64,000 bases of DNA from positions 310,001 to 374,000 of the forward strand of contig SAXG01000013.1 of assembly GCA_012932865.1 (NCBI GenBank). The letters run 5' to 3'. Source of the stretch: Amylostereum areolatum. Its lineage: Eukaryota > Basidiomycota > Agaricomycetes > Russulales > Stereaceae. Of this stretch, positions 22,934 to 37,500 are shown in pieces. Within the stretch, counting starts at the first letter, position 1. Every line of letters begins with the position of its first letter. A model generated the notes under the pieces. The model made no database searches, was not told where the DNA came from, and was given only the letters and a program-made list of their open reading frames with translations. Both the position numbers and the translations under genes were made by a program.

Positions 22934-25900
22934 ATGGCCTCGGCGACTCCCACTGTCCCTCCCCTCCTTGTGCCCTCGCTCTCTCAAAAGGCATTGAAGA
23001 GCATAGACAAGGTCCTTCGCATCGACCGAGCCGCCGACTATCCTAAGCAAGTCTGGTATTTCCTCGCCTGCTTCATCTTCCTCGTCGGCCTCGTCAACCA
23101 CCTCGCCCTCCTCTCCTTCCACCGTCGTCGCCGCACCTCGACCAAGCCCGACGCAGAGTCCCACCATGCCGCCCCAGCTCGCGCCATCTCGTATAGAAGG
23201 CTACCGTTGGCTGTCGTCAACGCGTGGCGCATCGTCGCATTCCGCTCCCACATCCGCATCGGCAGCTCCTACTCCCTCAGTCTGGCCGAGATATTCATGA
23301 CGGCCACATACATCACTATCCTTTTTGTTTGGACGCTACACAACTGTCCGTATCCCGCCGTTCAGTTCGTCTGTGCAATCCCTCACATCGCCCTCCAGCG
23401 GATTCGCTCGTCGGCGTCCACTACGACCCTCAATACTTCGCCAACCGGGCCGCCACCATCGCTTCCCTTCAGCTCCCACTCATTGCTGCGCTCGGCATGA
23501 AGAACAGCATCATTGGCTGTAAGTGGGGGTCTCACCGTTACGTCTTCTGTGTTTCACGCATGCCGCCGTCTCCCAGGGATCACCGGTGTCAGTTATGAAA
23601 AGGTTGAGCGCTGACATTTTTTCTTTGCTTCCATTTCGCTGACCTCGCCAGTTGAACTACCTCCATCGCATGTGCGCTCGGACGGTCATGGTCCTGATAT
23701 GGCTCCATGCCGGTGGAAGGGTAAGGCTTTTCCAACCTTTATTATCGTTGTCCTTGTTCACGAGCTGCTTTTCTAGATCAAGATCGGGTACGCCTTGACC
23801 GTTTACTTCGATCACCCTCGGAGATTAATCCTACAACTAGGCTCGTCGCGGACGTCGGGGTCGCCAACTACTACATCCGATGCGGAATCCTTGCTGCGAC
23901 TGCCTTGACCCTCCTCTGCATCGTCTCTATTCGACCTGTCCGTGAGACGACATACGAATTATTCTTGGTGACCCATTTCTGCCTCGTCCTGTACGTAGCC
24001 CTCCCTCCCCTTCCCGAGCTTGGCTCATATATCCTCCTAATCAGGGTCCTCCTCCTCGCGGCCTACTTCCACACACGTGAATACGAGTGAGTTATCCACC
24101 TCATTCACTCCCCAACATCCCGCTCATTTTCATGTGCCCTCAGCTTCTCCGTCCATGTCTGGCCCGCCTTCATCTTCTGGGGCCTCGATCGCGTGCTCCG
24201 CCTCGCGCGCTTTGTCGCCTTCAACCACTCTTACTTCGGACTCAAGTCGGGCCTTGGCACGTTCAACGCTACCGCCGAGCTGGTCTCTCCCGGCTTCGTG
24301 CGTCTCCGCCTCCGACGGCCTCGCCATTTCCGCTGGACGCCCGGCCAGAATGCGTGGCTCACCATGCCTGGCGTATCGGCGCTTCCGTGGGAGGCGCATC
24401 CTTTTACCATCGCCAGCGTCTACGATGACGAGGCCGATCTCGCTCACGCCGACAAGACGGCGGACCGCCGCACGGTCGAGCAAGGGAAGGAGCTTGTGTT
24501 TATCATCAAGGCACAGCAGGGATTCACGCGCCGGCTCGAGGACGTCGCGCAGAAGTCGGGCACGGTAAAGGTTAGTCTCCGTTGCTGACCTTATACAGAA
24601 GATAGTCGTTCTGTCTTTAAGGTCTGCCTCAAAATTAGGGGCCTTGGCTGGCCTGATCGAAAAAGGAAATTCGCTGCATCCCATCTCAGTTCAGAGCAGC
24701 ACCGGTCCGAGGAAAAAATATAGATTGTGTAATCAGGATTATACGCATGACGTCAGAGGTCATGCCAACGAGTCGACGCGACAATTGCTAAGTTCAGGCT
24801 TGCGCTTTCCAACATCCCTCATCATGGATTTTGTTTTCGTCACCGAGGTATGTATCCCCTCCTTTCCGCTAGATACCGTTGTGTGCTTATAGTGCTCAAT
24901 GATAACGAAGAATCCCGCTCTGAGCGATCTGGACAAACTCGGCAAAATCTGGGATGCTATTGCAGCGGCGGGATGGGGTCTTCCCGAATTCTTGTACAAC
25001 CTATTCTCGGTCGATACGAAGTCGAACACACGCCTCCATTCTTCTCTGAGGAGCATACTTGGGACTCAAAAAGCAAGATACAAAGCCACCGACATTGTTG
25101 ATCTCATGTACACCCACCCCCTGTCCCGACCTCCTGCCCGTCATAAAGATATTCCAAAGTACTTCTCTGCCAAACCCGACCCGGAAAACCCTGCAAAATA
25201 CTGCCAGCCCGCGCTCTCAACATGGGCCTTTCAGCTTGTACTCAAAGAGATCATCGTCCAGGCACGGGTTCTTGAAAAATGCAAAGAGCTTCGTGTCCGC
25301 GCGACCAGGCGTCAGTCAGCAGCTGGCACCGACAGTCGCCCACGAGAAGAAGAAGCAACTGCTTCGCATGAGGGGCGGCAGGTGGTGGCACAGCTACCGG
25401 AGGATCTGGACGAGGAGGCCTTGATGCATTGGGGAACGGTTGGCGACGAAGGTGCATTGTTTTTTCATGCGTGTTATATATTTGTTTTAATTCTTGAACG
25501 AAGCTCGCGAGGACGAAGACGACCCCATGGACGGAACACGCTCGAATACAGTCGCTGCCCCTGGATCTGGTCGACGCACGCCGCCACGGAAACAGAAGGG
25601 TTCCACCTCAAAAGACGACCTTGCGTCATGGCAGGTTCTCGATCACTTTTCGTTCGAGAAACTGGCCCACCTCTACAAGCGCGAGGCACCCGTTATCTGG
25701 GCGATCCTTCTCGCCATCGTCAACTTCATCGAAGAAATGGGGACAACAGGGTACAGACCGAAGGAGACAGTGAGCTGATAGTTTCGTCTCAATCTCGGAT
25801 CATTGTTCTGACTTCCATTTGACAAGGTGTGTACAAGTGTACTGAGCGAGCTCGTGTTCAGTCGCTCGCAGTGGACGAATCTGTTCCCGTTGGTTCGGAG

Positions 25901-28900
25901 TGTGGCGCTATTCGCGACGAGGGCTCACCAGTCTGCGTATCGCGTTGGGAGCCGCCTTGGGCAAAATCTCACGTACTCGTCAACACGAAACCTACTCGTT
26001 ACGACCGCGAACCGCGAGCTTGAACTCCTCAAGAATCGATTTCAAAATCTCGGCGACGAGGATCCAATTCTCATCGTCTTCGACAACATGCAAACCTTGG
26101 CTCGTCGGCGTGACATCCGTATTGGCACAAAAAACCGGTTCATCATCGGGACGGGGGCTACCGCAATAGAGATGCAAGACTGTCCCCCCGGCGCGTTCAA
26201 GCTCGATCCTATCAGGGAGAAATACAACTCAGGAGCGCGGCGCAACCTTCGTGTCGAGGACATCCTGAAGGAGTACGACTTGGACCATTTCGACGTCGTC
26301 TTTCAGTTCCATTTCCTCGAGGCGCTGGTGTCGTATGTCCCTGCATTGGCCGGCTATCGGAGCGAAGTGAACGAGCTGTTCGAGCTGCGTACCAAGAAAC
26401 ATCAAATCAACCCCCATAGAAACACAAAAGTCCACCCCCTCGGGACCAATAGTTCCAACGAAACAACTACAAAGGGGATGAAAGAGGCGCTATTCGACTT
26501 TATTCAGCAGCTTGGTATCACCCCCGATTCGTCGAAGGGTCATTTCATGTTCTTCCACGGCGATGGCAAGAGCTATGAAGGCATGCTCACGGTGAAGCGG
26601 CTGCTCTCCGGCAACCCTAACGACTTCAATGCTCTTCGCATGGTTCAGCCAGTCCTAGAGCTCTGGCACACGAAGGCGACAGCATTGAGCCGGATATGCG
26701 GTGGGTTTTGGGGCTCAGGGCATGATCTCGATGACCCGTCGACGTTGGGCTTCATGGCGAAGTTGCTGGGCTTCTCGACGCCATCCGACATGCACAAGGT
26801 GGACTTTTATCAAAATTCTCATCTCCTAGACATCGTCGTACGCGGCCATATGCTAAACGCATGGGAGTGAGTATTGGTTGCATCTGGGCATGTTCGAAAA
26901 CTCACTGGGTTTTAGGACTCTTTGCAAAGATGACCTGGCGGAGGGATCGGAAGCGCAACGCCCATTCGATCTGTGCGAGCATTACGCTCAACTCGCAATG
27001 GGGGGCAACCTACCACCGCTTGCGGAGTTGGTGACAGATGCGGCCCTTCTTGCACGTCGATACACGTCTACTCAGGCTTTCGAGAAAGCGACCCTTCCTC
27101 GGACATCCAAGAACAAGCATACAGACGACGCCCCGCAAGGTCCCGCATCACCTACACCCAAGTGCGATGGTGACCAGGCTCTTGCGAACAGCTGTATGCT
27201 GATGCGCGAGGGTACAATGTATCTTGAGGTCTGTCGGGCGACTGCCATAGGTGATGTCGGGCGAATCTGGCAGGTTCTCTTGGTATGTATTGTTATTTTC
27301 GCCTAAAGATTAAACTCACATCTTGGACAGCGATGGATCTTCTCTTTTTCGGGGGCAGGTCATTCAAACTATGCCGCATATCTCACAGAGATGTTTTGTG
27401 CAATCATGCACGAGTTCCCCCCTGAAACGGTCATCGCATTGTTCAACAACTGGCTCGTCAACTTTGTCGGCAAACCCGGTCACTTCCACGAAATCGACTT
27501 AATGCAGGAACACTTCAATGGCTGGCTGGAGGAGCTTGCCCAACACAAGGGACAAGAATTCGACGAGGAATGGTACCGTGAAGTTCTTTCCCGACACGTC
27601 CATCGCTTCGTTCGTGTTATCCAGGAGCTGGAGAAGAAGGTTGGCCTTGAAGCGAGACGGACTACTCACGGCGAACCTCCTAGCACCAACGAGATTCGGG
27701 AGGTCAAGCGCGTATGCCGCGACAATGATTTGCATCGACGACACGAAGGTCGTCACCTTGGGTTTGAGGTACCCGATCACTGGACTATGGGATACACGAG
27801 AATGGCAAATGGAAAACTGGGGCAATATATTGAAAAATCGATGCAGGAATGGGACAATATGCACAAGGATATCCCGATGCCGAGGGGGTATGAGGACATG
27901 ACGGTATACATGCACGCGCCAATCACGGTGGAGGACGGAAGGATGGATATCGTGGGGGATTATGATAAAAGTGTTGTAGGTGACATCGTACTAGCGTAAT
28001 CGCATGGATTTCGGGGTGCGTTCATGGAACATTGTCGGACTCCTTGGCCGTTTTGTTGGTGTGACCGAAACAGCACGGAGGTGGCGAGCGCCATGCCGAG
28101 AGGGCGTTGCAGGGACGTTCTCACCGCGAGAACGGGTGGGCGTGGATGGAGGGGACGCCATACTAACGGTGCTGCCGATACGGTAGGTCAGTGAAGCATT
28201 CAAACGGAAGTGTGTGTGATAGTACGCACCTCCCATCAGCAACATTGCCCTGCTGCCGCAACGCAGGCCTTGCAACGCCACCAATTTCCTCGGAATCTGG
28301 CTCGGTGCAGCCTTGTAAGCACTGGTCGTCTATACCAGATCGCATGTACGGACGCACCTGCCACTTGTTTCTTTGCCTGAGTCCGCCGACGCTTCGCTGC
28401 CTGTTCAAGTCGCGCTTCTTCTCGCATCCGGTCAAACTCGCGGTTCAACCGCTTCACCTCGTCGAATAATGCGAACCCATGCTCCTCTAAGAATTCCCAG
28501 CCATCCATGACCCCGGCCAAGGTCTCGCGATCATGAATCGAGGTGAGTGTACCCTTCAACTTTGTGCGGAACGACGGTGGAATGAGCGTGATGGACGACA
28601 GCTGTCGGAAGCGAGGTCCTTCGTGTTCGCACCATGCCACGCGGCAGAAGTGATCCATGGCTTTGTCCAAGACTTGCTCCATTTTGGCCGTGAGCTTTGG
28701 ATCTTTTGATGGCTTGTCCTCCGTTGCGGTGTCATCAGGATCTCCTATGGCGGCCATGGCGGGGGCGGAAGGTACGTCTTCGGGTGCTGTGCTAGGAGGT
28801 GGTAGAGGGAGGATCGGCTCTTCCGCTACGGCGGAGACGTAACGAGCAGTGGGACGTAGCGAATGGTTGGAAGGAAGCTGGCGGAGGCAGCTAGAGCAAA

Positions 28901-31837
28901 GAAGTGGGCGCTTGGCCTCGAGGCAGGGTGCGAGTTCGATGGCTGACGCATCATACCTCCCAAACATCCTATTCAGTTCCGCGTTGATGCATAGACACTT
29001 TGCATGGCATTCGACCAGTCGACGTAAGTCCTGATCTGCCATGCGCGAGGTTGTCTTTGTCTTTGTCTCCCCCACCATTTGTGACGCCCCACGCCTTTGA
29101 TACTCGGCAGCGGTGAGTCGGGTGTCTTCTACACCGCGCGCTAACGCCTTCTTCTCTTCTGCGAGGATTGCCTGTACGAACGATCGTTCGACATACACAA
29201 TTGACACCGCAAACCGTGAGCGATCCCGCCCTGCTCGTCCGTCATATTGTGGGATGGCCTCCGCCGTGTCAGGTAGCCCCATGATGAGCACATAGTCAAC
29301 CCGCCGAAGGTCAACACCCATCCCGAACTTGACGGTTGCCACGACTATGAAGCATTCTGGATTGTTTCGAAAAGCTTCCAGAGTCTCGGCATTTGCGCCC
29401 GCCACCACGTTGCTTCGACTTCGGCCCTCCACAAGCTCGGGGGCGTCTGCATGGATGATGTCATTGTCGTCGGTGAGTCCATCGTATATCCGAACGTGCC
29501 GCTGACGATCTGCACTACTTGGATAAAGGCGCTGCAGATACGATGCCACACGGAAGCAAGTGTCGTAATCCTTGCAGTATACAAGGATCTTCGCCTTTGC
29601 TGTCACTGCCCAGGCAATTTCCGGGAACTCTTCGCTCTTGAGTCCATGCCGCAACGTCCAGAACATAGTGCGTACGTTGGGTCGTTCAGTGGCGCGCCGA
29701 ATAACTTCATACCCTCCAGGCTGAAGCTACATCAACGAGAGCAGCTTCTTCTCGGGCTCCAGGCTCAGCGTAGCTGTCATGAGGAGGATAGGTATGTGCG
29801 GCCCAATCCGTGCTCGAACACGGTCGATCTGTCCGAAGGCCTCGCGGAAAGCTTTACTCCATGGACAGACGACGTGTGCCTCGTCGACTGTGTAGAGGAC
29901 CAGATTTTGGAGGAAGTATACGTCCCGGAGGACCATGTCGAACTCTCGTGCGGTGAGGCGCTCCGGTGAAACAATGACCACTTCCCAGATGCACTGACAG
30001 ACCTCTTTCAGGACGTCACGGCCTTGTTGCTCGCGGGCGACCTGGATGTAGTGGCGATCAAGCGCGACGGCCTTGATACCCATGTGTTCCATCTCCGCAA
30101 CCTAGTAAAAAAGGTCTGTATCCATCAAATTATGAACTCGGGTGGTGACTTACCTGGCTTCTGCCGAGGTCAGATAGAGGAGTCACTACCAGTACCACCG
30201 GCTTGTCGACGAGTTTCAGGCCGAAGCGAGGAAGTGTGGGGTCTTTCTTTAGCTCCTTGATGAGAATAAGGTGGAGGTACATGGCTGCTGTTTTGCCATC
30301 TCCGCATGCCGCAACGAGGAGCTGGTGCTTTCTATCAAGGATGTTTGCTGTTGCGTTGACTTGCCAGTCGTATGGACCATCTGGCCATTGTGGAAGTGCC
30401 GGAATGAGGGCAGATTTGATAGCGTGGCAACCCTCTGGACTGGACCAGGATGCCAGAGGGTTCATTGGGAGGGTGGTGGTTGAAGGAGAGAGCGGGCTCG
30501 TTGCTAGCAGGCTCAGCGGTCCCAATCAATTTTCTGAGACATTTCAAACTATTTGTCACCAGTAAGAGTACAATGAAGATACAATGGACAATTTAGAGCC
30601 TGAACTGGGATACTATGTCAACAGAACACCAAACGGGGAGAGTACAGTGGCTCTAGATGCCAAAAGTCGGGAACCTCACTGCAGAACATGCTTCGAACGC
30701 GTACACTGATTGTCGACGCGCTCATCACGTGCACGGTCGATGACGAACAACGATGACCATATAGGAACAATCCGGACAATCGGGAGCACCTGCCGGCTGC
30801 TGCGGATTTCCTTATAGGATCAGGCCAGCCAAGGGCCCTAATTTTGACTTAGACTAGGTAAAGGTGTTCGTCGACGGTCCGTACGGGGCACCTCCCCGCT
30901 TGGCAGGCTACGACACGGCGCTGTTCATCGCTGGTGAGAGCATCCACCACTCTTTAGCCGAGACCTTTTTTGATCAAAAGATATGTCCACTCAGGCGGGT
31001 CGGGCGTCTCGTTCACACACCCGCTGTTCGTCGATCTCGTTCGGTGCGTCCTCGTCCTCCATGTTCCATGATTCATCGTGCTCATATACGTATGGACCTT
31101 CATCAGTCGTGCACGCCACGATCCAAGCACTTGCAGACGCGCGGTTTTCCTCTGGGCAGTGCGTCATGCAGGTGTGCACCCCTTCTTACCCCTCCCTCCT
31201 TACCCCTTCTCATCTTGCCTCTCAGAGGACATCGATCTTATACACTCAAGCCTCTCCAAGGCTCTACACACCGTCCCGTCCTCTCTCGAGGTCGAAGTGC
31301 ACATTTACATCACCGGCGGCGACAGCTCCGGCTCGAGTGAAACCTCCCTCGTTCACAGCGAGCTCGATCCATCCGAGAAGGAATCCAGCCCGCTCAGCAA
31401 GCTCGCGCGCATCCCTCGCACCCGAATCAAGAAGGGACGTCCGGATGTGAGGGAAGCGATTGCGGAGGCGGCCGCGCTGGCGCAGGGGAGCATGGCTGTC
31501 GCGCGTGCGTCTTCTTTCTTTTCTTCGGTGAAGCGAGTGGAGAGGCTGATCGTTGGTGGCGATAGTATGTGGTCCGTCGAGCATGGTCGTCGATGGGCAG
31601 AGGGCGCTTCGCTCGTCGCTGGCGGGACCCGCGAACGTCCTTCGCGGCGGTCCGAGCATCACGCTCTTCGTCGAAAGCTTCGGGTACAACGTGAGTGGTC
31701 TCCTACCTCTCCTAAGTAGCTCGCAGTACTCATTCGTGGTCTCTTTTTTACAAAGTGAGTCGCGTTGGGCCAAGTTTGGAAGACGCCGCTGTATTGTTAT
31801 TCTTAACTTCTTGTGCTTGCAGGAGGGGGGTGTCTAA
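22934..31837 (+). CDS. Ferric/cupric reductase transmembrane protein (FRE family) with a mobile element in one intron
   Basis: The protein starts MASATPTVPPLLVPSLSQKA at 22934. An N-terminal membrane segment is followed by the ferric-reductase heme domain, including NRAATIASLQLPLIAALGMK, NYLHRMCARTVMVLIWLHAG and a distal HFCLVLVLLLAAYFH. The FAD-binding domain follows (FRWTPGQNAWLTMPG and the HPFTIAS motif). After AQKSGTVK at 24570 the reading resumes only at 30863 with VFVDGPYGAPPRL. Next come the NAD-binding GGSGVSFTHPLF and a C-terminal end ITLFVESFGYN, stop at 31835-31837. All junctions keep frame. The gap is a 6.2-kb element inside an intron. Role by family: reduction of extracellular metal for high-affinity uptake. 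Whether this allele still splices is unknown. Confidence 0.85.
24629..24678 (+). repeat. Left terminal inverted repeat
   Basis: It starts TCAAAATTAGGGGCCTTGGC and matches the reverse complement of 30798-30847 at 44 of 50 positions. Mismatches fall at position 13, at 31, 32 and 34, and at 43 and 47; the first 30 bp differ at one base only. Confidence 0.85.
24824..27999 (+). CDS. DUF6589 protein, putative transposase of the TIR element
   Basis: The likely start is an ATG at 24824 (MDFVFVTE, then an intron); an internal start MITKNPALSDLDKLG at 24899 is the alternative. Five exons join without frame errors to about 900 residues. DUF6589 landmarks appear in order: HFSFEKLAHLYKREAPVIWA, DPILIVFDNMQTLARRRDIR, GTGATAIEM, KGMKEALFDFIQQLGI, HFMFFHGDGKSYEGM, LELWHTKATALSRI, DPSTLGFMAKLLGF, FNNWLVNFVGKPGHFHEIDL and MQEHFNGWLEEL. 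Asp in VFDN, Asp in HGDGKS and a later Glu are spaced like RNase H-fold (DDE) transposase residues, but that is my inference. DUF6589 is abundant in basidiomycetes and has no established function. The gene meets the helicase tail to tail. Confidence 0.85.
28236..30465 (-). CDS. RecQ-type SF2 DNA helicase of the TIR element, with an in-frame stop
   Basis: The first ATG is at 30465 (MNPLASWSSPEG). Helicase motifs run in order: YDWQVNATANIL (Q-like), AACGDGKTAAMY (motif I), VVLVVTPLSDL (Ia), YTVDEAHVVCPW (DEAH, motif II), LLMTATLSLE (III), KILVYCKDYDT (IV), VVATVKFGMGVDLRRVDYV (V) and IPQYDGRAGRDR (VI). After the core is a Cys-containing segment (CHAKCLC, CSSCLRQL) like a RecQ zinc region. An intron near 30100-30160 restores frame. 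A TAG at 29729-29727 interrupts the coding frame between EKKLLSLM and LQPGGYEVIRR without any frame change, so this copy should be truncated unless the stop is a sequencing error. A Thr/Pro/Arg-rich open stretch ending at 27991 may be a further 3' exon. Confidence 0.85.
30798..30847 (-). repeat. Right terminal inverted repeat
   Basis: Read on the minus strand it starts TCAAAATTAGGGCCCTTGGC and pairs with 24629-24678. It ends 15 bp before the ferric reductase exon that resumes at 30863. Confidence 0.85.
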
Positions 31838-34508: not shown

Positions 34509-37500
34509 CTAAACTGCTCCTCGTTCTTGAAGGAGCAGTACAACTTCTTTGTGGTTTTGAAGTACAGCTGCTTCTAATGCAGTGTTAAAGTAGCTATAGT
34601 TATACTGTGCATTCACTGATTCCACTTCTGCACCTTTGTCAAGAAGGATGTGCACAGCCTTGAGATGGCCCATAGATGTAGCTGCTTGCAGTGCTGTACC
34701 AAATTGACCACCTTTTGCATTAACATCTGCCCCATGCTCAAGAAGGAGATGCATTATATCAAGGTGGCCTTCAGATGCAGCTGCTTGCAAAGCTGTTCCA
34801 TAATCACCACCCTGCCCATTCACATCTGCTCCAAGCTCAAGAAAGATATCCATAATGCCAATGCAGCCACCCAATGCAGCTGCTTGCAATGCTGTGCCAG
34901 TTTTACCACCCTGCAAATTTATGTCTGCACCATTGTTAAGAAGGAGTTGCACACCCTCGAGGTGGCCTTGGACCGCAGCTGCTTGCAAAGCTGTACCCCA
35001 CACACCACCCTGTGTATTAACATCCACCCCATGCTCAAGAAAGAAATGCATCATATCAAGGCAATGGTGGCCTTTAGATGCGGCAGCTGCTTGCAATGCT
35101 GTGCCGGAATCACCACCCTGCAAATCTATGTCTGCACCATTGTTAAGAAGGAGTTGCACACCCTCAAGGTGGCCTTGGAATGCAGCTGCTTGCAAAGCTG
35201 TTCCATGATAGCCACCCTGCTCATTCACATCTGCTCCAAGCTCAAGAAAGATATTCATAATGTCAATGCATTCACCTGATGCAGCTGCTTGTAATGCTGT
35301 GCCAAGTCTACCACCCTGTATATTTATGTCTGCACCATTGTTAAGAAGGAGTTGCACACCCTCAAGGTCACCCATAGATGCAGCAGCTTGCAATGCTGTA
35401 CAAAACTCACTACCCTGTGCATTGATATCTGCCCCATGCTCAAGAAGGAGATGCATAAGATCAACATGACCCAAGCTAGCAGCAATTTGCAATACTGTAT
35501 CACCACTAAAATCCTGTTCTTGTACATCTATGCCTTTATCAAGAAAGAAGCGCATAATGTTCAGGTGACCTCCCCATGCAGCTGCATGCAGAAGTAGAAA
35601 TCCCCATAGCTCCATATCATTATCAGCCTTCTGTCTTTCATATAGGGTATTAGTTTGCCTATAAAATCCACATAGGGAAGTATAAAGAATAGGCATCAAC
35701 AAGCCAAGTTCAGGGTAGCCATTCCTGAAAACTGTATCTGAAGCAGGATCAAAGATAGCCAACCATCTGGACAGGAAAGAAGTTTGGGGGTTAAACAGTG
35801 TGTCCATCATCATCTCCACCTTAACATTGTCAACTACATTTTCATGTTTTGCATGTGCAACCCAGGATCTGGCTGCATATTGCAAGAAATGAGGATTACT
35901 ATCATTATCTTCTGGCATCAGCACACCTAAGCAGAGCTGAGTGATGGTGGTGTGTGATGATCCACTGCTAAGATGATATGATGAAATTTGCTCAGTTTTA
36001 GAAAGACGTTCAGAGACCAGATATTCTTGCACTGAGAAATGTGCAAATTGCACAAGCTCGTTGTTCAAAACTACAAGGCCTGAACATATCTGCAAAACTT
36101 GGGTAGTAGATGGACGGTATGAGCTGATGAATATTGGCACAGGATCAGCATCAAGGTCAACAGCCAGGATATCGGCTAGCTCCTCAATGGTGAAGGGTTT
36201 CATGGAGAAGGCAAGGCATTGGAAGAGGTGAAGAGCATCCTGTGAGAGATTCTCAGGGATTCCTTCTAGAATCCGTTGGTATGTTTCATCCAATGTCTTG
36301 GGCAGGTTCTTGAGGGTGCTTCTTATGTGCTTGGGCAAACAATGCCTGAAGTTGGCAGAATACCCAGCGGAACCTACATCCCAGAAATGTAAGAAAGCCA
36401 TTTATAAGAATGTAGTAAACAAAAGTACTTACATCCCATTTGCTTTCTCCGTCAGAGTGCGGATGGCAAGGTCAGTGTCGCTAGGCCTCCATGTTCGAAA
36501 AACTGGGTCCTGTTGAAGGACATGGCGAACATATGAATTTATGTCTTTGGCCTGTTGATCAACCAAGTGTAGGTTGACCTGATCCGTGACCAACAGCCCT
36601 ATCCTCATTCTGATATCATGTTCTGGTCGACTCGTCACGTAGAGATGAAGCCTATCAAGTTTCCAGCTGACAAGTTCCTCGATCACGGTCAACACCTTTG
36701 CACGCTCCGTGTGCTCAGGGCACTCATCTAAAGCATCCAAGACAACAGAAATTCCATCACATCCCGAGAGCAAGCTTTTCGTGCATCGTAAGAGAGAATC
36801 ACGGCTGGGTTGTTCGCACCCATCACGGTGCCTCGAGTACAAGTCACGCAGAATAGAACCGCCTTCAGAAGCCAGATACGCCAGTTGGGTGACCAGAGAT
36901 ACCAAGAGACCGCGCGCGCTGTGTTTTGCTTCATCTCTGAAGTCGAAATAATAGTAGACCACGCAGGAATCTGGCGATCGCTTGAGTTCTTGTATGGTTG
37001 TGGAGCTATTGGGTCAACACAAACGGTCAGCCAGGCTTCCCAGATACGAGCGCAAGACGTACCATAGGACGCTCTTTCCCGATCCAGCTATGATTCGCGA
37101 TAAGCTAAGGCAATGCTGACGATGGACAAGAAATGAACGAACGTTTGCCGTGCACCCACAAGAACGATGCGTCGGTGGTCCTCCAGTCCTTGAAAGTATC
37201 GCTGCGGAGGTGCCATTCGCCCGTGCCGGGGTGATGCGATTCGCTCATCAAGTTGTGGTTCGTCGACGGATCCGGCGGGGAGAGCCAGCGTATGATCTCC
37301 TTGTCCACTTGTGTTTTCTTGATCGCGTCCAGTTGTGATGTCATGTTCCGGGTGTTTTCTATGCATAAAAGAAGGTCAGCTTCACAACAAGCCGTCGCAG
37401 CGTGTGCACATGCCTTCTGACACCGTGTTGAGCTCGCGGATGAGGGTATCTATGGATTTGAGGATGCTCTCGATGTGGCTGTGGGATGCGTCCTTGTCTT

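Follow-up and report, generated by a model that had tools for sequence, protein, structure and literature searches.

A transposon of Amylostereum areolatum that encodes a DUF6589 protein and a RecQ-type helicase and likely belongs to AcademH

Kojima (2020; doi 10.1186/s13100-020-00211-1) is said to be the primary report of AcademH, a class of helicase-encoding DNA transposons. In the excerpts of the literature at hand, AcademH elements create duplications of 9 or 10 bp and AcademX elements duplications of 3 or 4 bp, a difference that seems to be tied to helicase versus nuclease (PMC10045372); in Basidiomycota, Ascomycota, and Mucoromycota, AcademH is described as a low-copy element (PMC10799480), and putative non-autonomous Academ elements as widespread in Marasmius (PMC8290104). 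Fungal Academ copies carry DEAD and recQ_fam helicases, which are often annotated as host genes (PMC6416283). A RecQ helicase is also carried by KolobokH, there downstream of the transposase domain, and by a Kolobok of a red alga, there on the complementary strand (PMC9587614; excerpts in both cases). Here, a stretch of 64,000 nucleotides of contig SAXG01000013.1 from A. areolatum was analyzed as a whole (the window). Judged by its borders, the segment 24573-30856 is a mobile DNA element that landed in a coding exon of a gene resembling a ferric reductase gene. We consider it highly probable that a 9-bp duplication here marks the insertion of a DNA transposon, with the DUF6589 protein as its predicted DDE transposase and a now broken RecQ-type helicase that would once have assisted, and that it likely belongs to AcademH. 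The ends, the duplication, the interrupted exon, the related copies elsewhere, the recurrent pairing of the two genes, and the helicase stop codon can be read directly from the sequence.

The element measures 6284 bp; its left terminus, at 24573, begins TAGTCTCC, its right terminus, at 30856, closes with AGACTA, and an exact 9-bp target-site duplication, GGTAAAGGT, borders it on both sides. The 64-kb window contained only one pair of TAGWCT and AGWCTA that was spaced by 4-8 kb and accompanied by a 9-bp duplication, and none of 300 block shuffles of the window yielded such a pair. A preliminary description of this DNA had regarded two inverted-repeat arms as the ends. The likeness of these arms was reproduced (44 of 50 positions match, and 29 of the outermost 30, with the next-best placement of the left arm's reverse complement on the plus strand of the window reaching 27 of 50), but they are not the termini, which are located further out, by 56 bp on the left and by 9 bp on the right. 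At the left end only, outside the arm, a hairpin is predicted (−9.4 kcal/mol, z −3.94, equaled by 0 of 200 shuffles); the left-end hairpins of two relatives gave z values of −4.6 and −4.7. The features of the element and its insertion site are as follows.

24573-30856, no strand assigned: whole transposon, ends TAGTCT...AGACTA
24564-24572, plus strand: target-site duplication GGTAAAGGT, left copy, 9 bp
30857-30865, plus strand: target-site duplication GGTAAAGGT, right copy, 9 bp
24584-24627, plus strand: predicted left-end hairpin, from folding versus shuffles
24629-24678, plus strand: left inverted-repeat arm, 44/50
30798-30847, minus strand: right inverted-repeat arm, 44/50 with the left arm
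24091-24572, plus strand: 5′ portion of the host exon, ferric-reductase-like gene, FAD_binding_8
30866-30933, plus strand: host exon resumed beyond the element, with an approximate right limit

When the flanks were joined, a coding exon was restored (...GTVKV|FVDGPYG..., the bar marking the insertion point), and the match to FAD_binding_8 extended from profile positions 6-62 (47.6 bits, unjoined) to positions 6-108 of 109 (59.7 bits). From this domain and the letters themselves, the interrupted host gene resembles genes for ferric reductases. An insertion into an intron (the left side opens with GT) was rejected, because removal of the element and one duplicate restores the exon. The exact duplication, the interrupted exon, and copies with the same ends elsewhere bear out the claim of the preliminary description that the element is mobile.

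The arms and the ends behaved differently in genome-wide searches. The 28-bp outer arm, searched with up to three mismatches, matched at its own two sites only, which by the test proposed in the preliminary description would have counted against its proposal; it is a poor family marker, because it is inner sequence and not the terminus. The true left end, as a 30-mer and again with up to three mismatches, gave 56 matches including the window (reversed control, 0). The 21-nucleotide right end of the window element had four relatives with one mismatch each (the reversed-pattern control gave one match at up to three mismatches). These four are non-autonomous elements of 1174, 1174, 1181, and 1712 bp, the last rearranged, each at a different site and each with both window-type ends; the duplications are exact at 9 bp in three and match at 8 of 9 positions in one, and the first 126 bp of the window element are 83-84% identical to theirs. 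Within the largest left-end subgroup, 33 left and 17 right ends combined into 16 complete elements of 1074-1084 bp (for example, L043 with L069 and L047 with L070). They make up a non-autonomous family whose left end resembles that of the window element and whose members fall into one class of 1074-1075 bp and another of 1084 bp. Two of the 16 were read through, and both had exact 9-bp duplications.

The element encloses two convergent genes, as the preliminary description had stated: one for a DUF6589 (PF20231) protein and one for a RecQ-like superfamily 2 (SF2) helicase.

24824-27999, plus strand: DUF6589 gene; exons 24824-24847, 24893-25451, 25504-25769, 25827-26866, 26916-27282, and 27331-27999
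26082-26084, plus strand: predicted catalytic Asp D369 (VFDN), from alignment and model
26562-26564, plus strand: predicted catalytic Asp D529 (HGDGKS), from alignment and model
27508-27510, plus strand: predicted catalytic Glu E812 (DLMQEH), from alignment and model
28239-30465, minus strand: RecQ-type SF2 helicase, broken; exons 30154-30465 and 29730-30101, TAG at 29727-29729, open frame 28239-29726

The DUF6589 gene, modeled by eye with splice sites taken from GT/AG and reading frame, comprises six exons that encode 974 amino acids without a stop, and its product matches PF20231 with an E-value of 1.9e-119 over profile positions 2-410 of 410. The VFDN and HGDGKS motifs noted earlier are indeed present. 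Their aspartates and the later glutamate form a D, D, E triad that is invariant in an alignment of the DUF6589 frame L006 with 38 homologues, drawn from 151 listed proteins (another alignment took 28 of the 32 proteins found). The best match of L006 was to Amylostereum chailletii, with 91% identity. For predicted structures of DUF6589 proteins from two clades, the top-ranked fold matches were the transposases of Hermes and the P element, at Foldseek E-values that are weak and not significant. Pfam contained no domain besides DUF6589 in the window protein at E-values up to 1. Neither did a sequence search of the Protein Data Bank with the window DUF6589 exon give a match at E-values up to 1, and a search there with the DUF6589 profile found a designed protein at 0.26 and nothing else. 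We predict that DUF6589 adopts an RNase H fold and acts as a DDE transposase whose active site consists of D369, D529, and E812, and by the modeled fold and the conserved triad it is likely the transposase of the element, as the preliminary description had proposed. DUF6589 recurs across agaricomycete proteomes as hypothetical proteins (one search at E-values up to 0.001 found 403, of which 120 were listed), and the predicted fold and active site turn such proteins into likely transposon genes.

The helicase gene, on the opposite strand, encodes an SF2 protein with pieces of DEAD and Helicase_C and with RecQ-type similarity; cysteines near its C terminus are common to it and several relatives. 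Its exon limits were set by eye, and its C-terminal end is uncertain. The earlier assignment as a RecQ-like helicase stands with respect to this similarity, with the correction that the gene is broken: an in-frame TAG (29727-29729) separates the ATPase half from the C-terminal half and counts as a break unless an unseen splice removes it.

The DUF6589 exon had at least 112 matches genome-wide (102 of 130 candidates were scored), clustered into 58 loci. Two families of near-identical elements stood out, both encoding DUF6589 and, like the window element, with DUF6589 and helicase genes that converge: family A, of which five copies were studied (four with both ends; six left ends genome-wide), and family B, with seven complete copies by paired ends, of which six were studied. 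Identity within each family is 99.8-99.9%, over 6.3 kb in A and 6.8 kb in B, and over 3.4 kb for the partial copy L012. Duplications are exact at 8 bp in four of four cases in family A, and at 9 bp in five of six (L019 included) in family B, the exception being L015. Two further families have 9-bp duplications: C153 (L023; the same duplication occurs in L024), which with 7 of 16 end bases matching is the weakest end pair accepted, and C170, with 12 of 16 matching and a copy of 7637 bp. All four families have TAG...CTA ends. The duplication, anticipated to be constant, is nearly so: family A has 8 bp, and the window's family, like most others, has 9 bp. An end scan of the window and 20 loci found no TAG-ended pair at L012, L015, L021, and L025-L028, and only 7-bp matches at L020 and L022, with a null of 0.15 hits per locus; the ends of L027 were resolved with a longer flank. 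L027, L028, and L006 form an element group in which the genes are divergent rather than convergent, and C170 is among the divergent ones. The right flank of L015, the family B copy without a duplication, is matched by sequence close to the C162 copy in L024, which suggests that one element was inserted into or beside another. Empty alleles were sought in the same assembly for three sites, those of the window element, of a family A copy, and of a family B copy, and the two half-flanks alone gave matches. A search of a plasmid collection with a family A copy gave no match, which is uninformative.

Among 27 RecQ-type loci obtained by scoring (28 of 110 candidates were scored), 20 have a DUF6589 locus at a distance of 6 kb or less (2.6 kb at most), against an expectation of 0.37 from a simple coverage estimate for 6 kb. 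The count of 20 is inflated by near-identical copies, 7 of them being family B. Fifteen of the paired loci are convergent and five divergent. Beyond this genome, six named fungal relatives of the helicase were compared (four more fungal-like matches carried no name), equal length being taken to denote an identical contig. One, in Meripilus lineatus, has a gene number consecutive with that of a DUF6589 gene (g4816/g4817). For three, the contig is as long as that of a DUF6589 match from the respective species (Auriscalpium, 28270; Panus, 61399 and 64508). The contig of the relative from Cerrena also has an equal length, but the two genes are 59 gene numbers apart, and for that from Peniophora no DUF6589 pair was seen. 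These data support DUF6589 and the RecQ-type helicase as a recurring pair, in line with the co-location proposed earlier. With this pair, 20 of the 27 scored RecQ-type loci are explained and become likely transposon genes. Two RecQ-type loci, C139:519964-520614 and C3:15685-16728, have no DUF6589 neighbor and a family-B-like end within 1-2 kb; from this arrangement, they may be deleted or diverged elements.

The left-end matches included far shorter remnants. Of the 56, 43 rows were examined for scars; 5 others correspond to the window and L039-L042, and the remaining 8 stand outside the count. Seventeen rows were scar-like, 14 run on into an element, and 12 did neither, some of the last resembling older scars with 7 of 9 positions matching. 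The 17 scar rows (L044-L046, L048, L050, L051, L057, L060-L062, L064, L068, L072-L074, L076, and L077) represent 16 sites, as L044 and L045 share one flank (L084 and L085 also have a common flank, and L078 and L081 nearly so). Each retains 40, 41, 43, 44, 45, 48, or 49 nucleotides of the left end, followed directly by the second copy of the duplication, which matches at 9 of 9 positions in 13 rows (in one row at a distance of two bases from the end) and at 8 of 9 in 4; the flank-swap control gave 0.6%. The break points fall in the 3′ arm of the left-end hairpin. In the largest subgroup, 17 left ends are unpaired (14 scars, 1 continuing into an element, 2 ambiguous) and only 1 right end is. We infer that the remnants are products of excision or of aborted repair. 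That they are instead independent mini-elements, inserting alone with 9-bp duplications, is possible yet distinctly the less probable reading: a length of 49 is common to 7 of the 17 rows (6 sites), and the hairpin could serve as a signal for the transposase, but the lengths vary, the 49 nucleotides of L076 are identical to the left end of the window element, and L046, L050, and L062 retain a TA that could stem from the final two bases of the right terminus.

DUF6589 would bind the inverted repeats, cut the element out, and insert it into target DNA whose strands are offset by 9 bp (by 8 bp in family A). Such cut-and-paste movement is suggested because at 16 sites the two copies of the duplication enclose nothing but 40-49 nucleotides of left end, as expected of an excision scar. 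In the least certain steps, the helicase would help to refill the donor gap with a new copy of the element, the sister chromatid serving as template, and a scar would form when this copying halts at the left-end hairpin. BLM is a RecQ helicase, and by analogy the self-encoded RecQ-type helicase could carry out BLM-like gap repair for its own element. As excerpted, work on flies describes shorter repair synthesis in blm mutants and a role of BLM in promoting synthesis-dependent repair of P-element gaps (PMC8951532). A more specific scheme, offered tentatively and on balance doubtful, is that the elements have a built-in asymmetry, in which the hairpin module outside the left inverted repeat sets the break during excision or donor-gap repair that leaves the 40-49-nucleotide tag with the target duplication on both sides, that the RecQ helicase carries copying through the hairpin such that the element regenerates at the donor, and that DUF6589 is the transposase. 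For testing the mechanism of a helicase-encoding transposon, the scars and the non-autonomous copies supply ready-made substrates as well as predictions.

Elsewhere in the window, an ankyrin-repeat gene is located at 34509-36401 on the minus strand, with an open frame of 630 amino acids whose repeats form a 99-bp tandem array.

Compared by description only, the element likely belongs to AcademH, a class already named: a helicase lies beside the likely transposase (in the window, with one in-frame stop), and a duplication of the 9-10-bp range flanks the window element, the non-autonomous copies, and families B, C153, and C170. Most likely the class is a known one, and what is new here are the assignment of DUF6589, the ends, and the scars. 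The statement in the preliminary description that no named class has this pairing does not hold, as the excerpts describe AcademH, fungal Academ with recQ_fam, and KolobokH, and its second idea, helicases annotated as host genes, is already in print, likewise as excerpted (PMC6416283). The 8-bp duplications of family A, outside the AcademH range, the weak Foldseek E-values, and the inflated pairing count weigh against our reading. The first of these would also fit a real DNA transposon of an undescribed superfamily, in which DUF6589 is unrelated to the Academ transposase and helicase and duplication length are convergent; no published link between DUF6589 and Academ was found in the literature searched by family names and Academ, in which no paper mentioned DUF6589 and the one match to PF20231 was, judging from the title, a paper on optics, and in the excerpt RecQ helicases occur in Kolobok too, once on the complementary strand (PMC9587614). 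We regard this as improbable, because helicase, duplication length, host range, and host-gene annotation all fit the excerpted descriptions of AcademH and fungal Academ, and a widespread occurrence of putative non-autonomous Academ elements has been reported from Marasmius, also a mushroom (PMC8290104). That DUF6589 is a passenger and another transposase mobilizes the element in trans is hardly credible: no description of a DUF6589 activity was found and the fold E-values are weak, but the gene occurs in families A and B as well as in the window element, its frame in the window copy has no interruption although the helicase there is broken, its product shows no other Pfam domain, both models rank transposases first, and the triad is conserved.

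Among other transposons, Helitrons, which encode a Rep/HUH protein and are not known to have inverted repeats or duplications, do not fit, as both are present here. Pfam covers the transposases of KDZ elements (Zisupton, Dileera, and Kyakuja); only DUF6589 was matched at E-values up to 1, and the duplication is 9 bp versus 8 bp in Zisupton. hAT elements have a C-terminal dimerization domain and, like the P element, an 8-bp duplication; the duplication here is 9 bp, no Pfam match to the hAT dimerization domain was obtained, and P-element transposase domains likewise had no Pfam match in the DUF6589 protein. The P element and hAT (Hermes) are alike in providing the best fold matches and in a similar duplication length, and we know of no helicase encoded by either. 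Kolobok targets TTAA, a duplication that does not occur here: GGTAAAGGT and the other 8-9-bp duplications are of varied sequence. As far as the excerpts describe it, KolobokH shares a RecQ helicase in a fungal DDE transposon, but the helicase here is a separate gene on the opposite strand. Fungal Academ elements with recQ_fam likewise contain a RecQ-type helicase, in many cases annotated as a host gene; the excerpt consulted mentions neither DUF6589 nor ends (PMC6416283). The present elements differ from AcademH in the 8-bp duplications of family A and in the additional left-end hairpin, none being described in the text consulted; they agree with it, in the same text, in being helicase-encoding DNA transposons, here with a predicted DDE-type transposase, that have a 9-bp duplication, in fungi including Basidiomycota.
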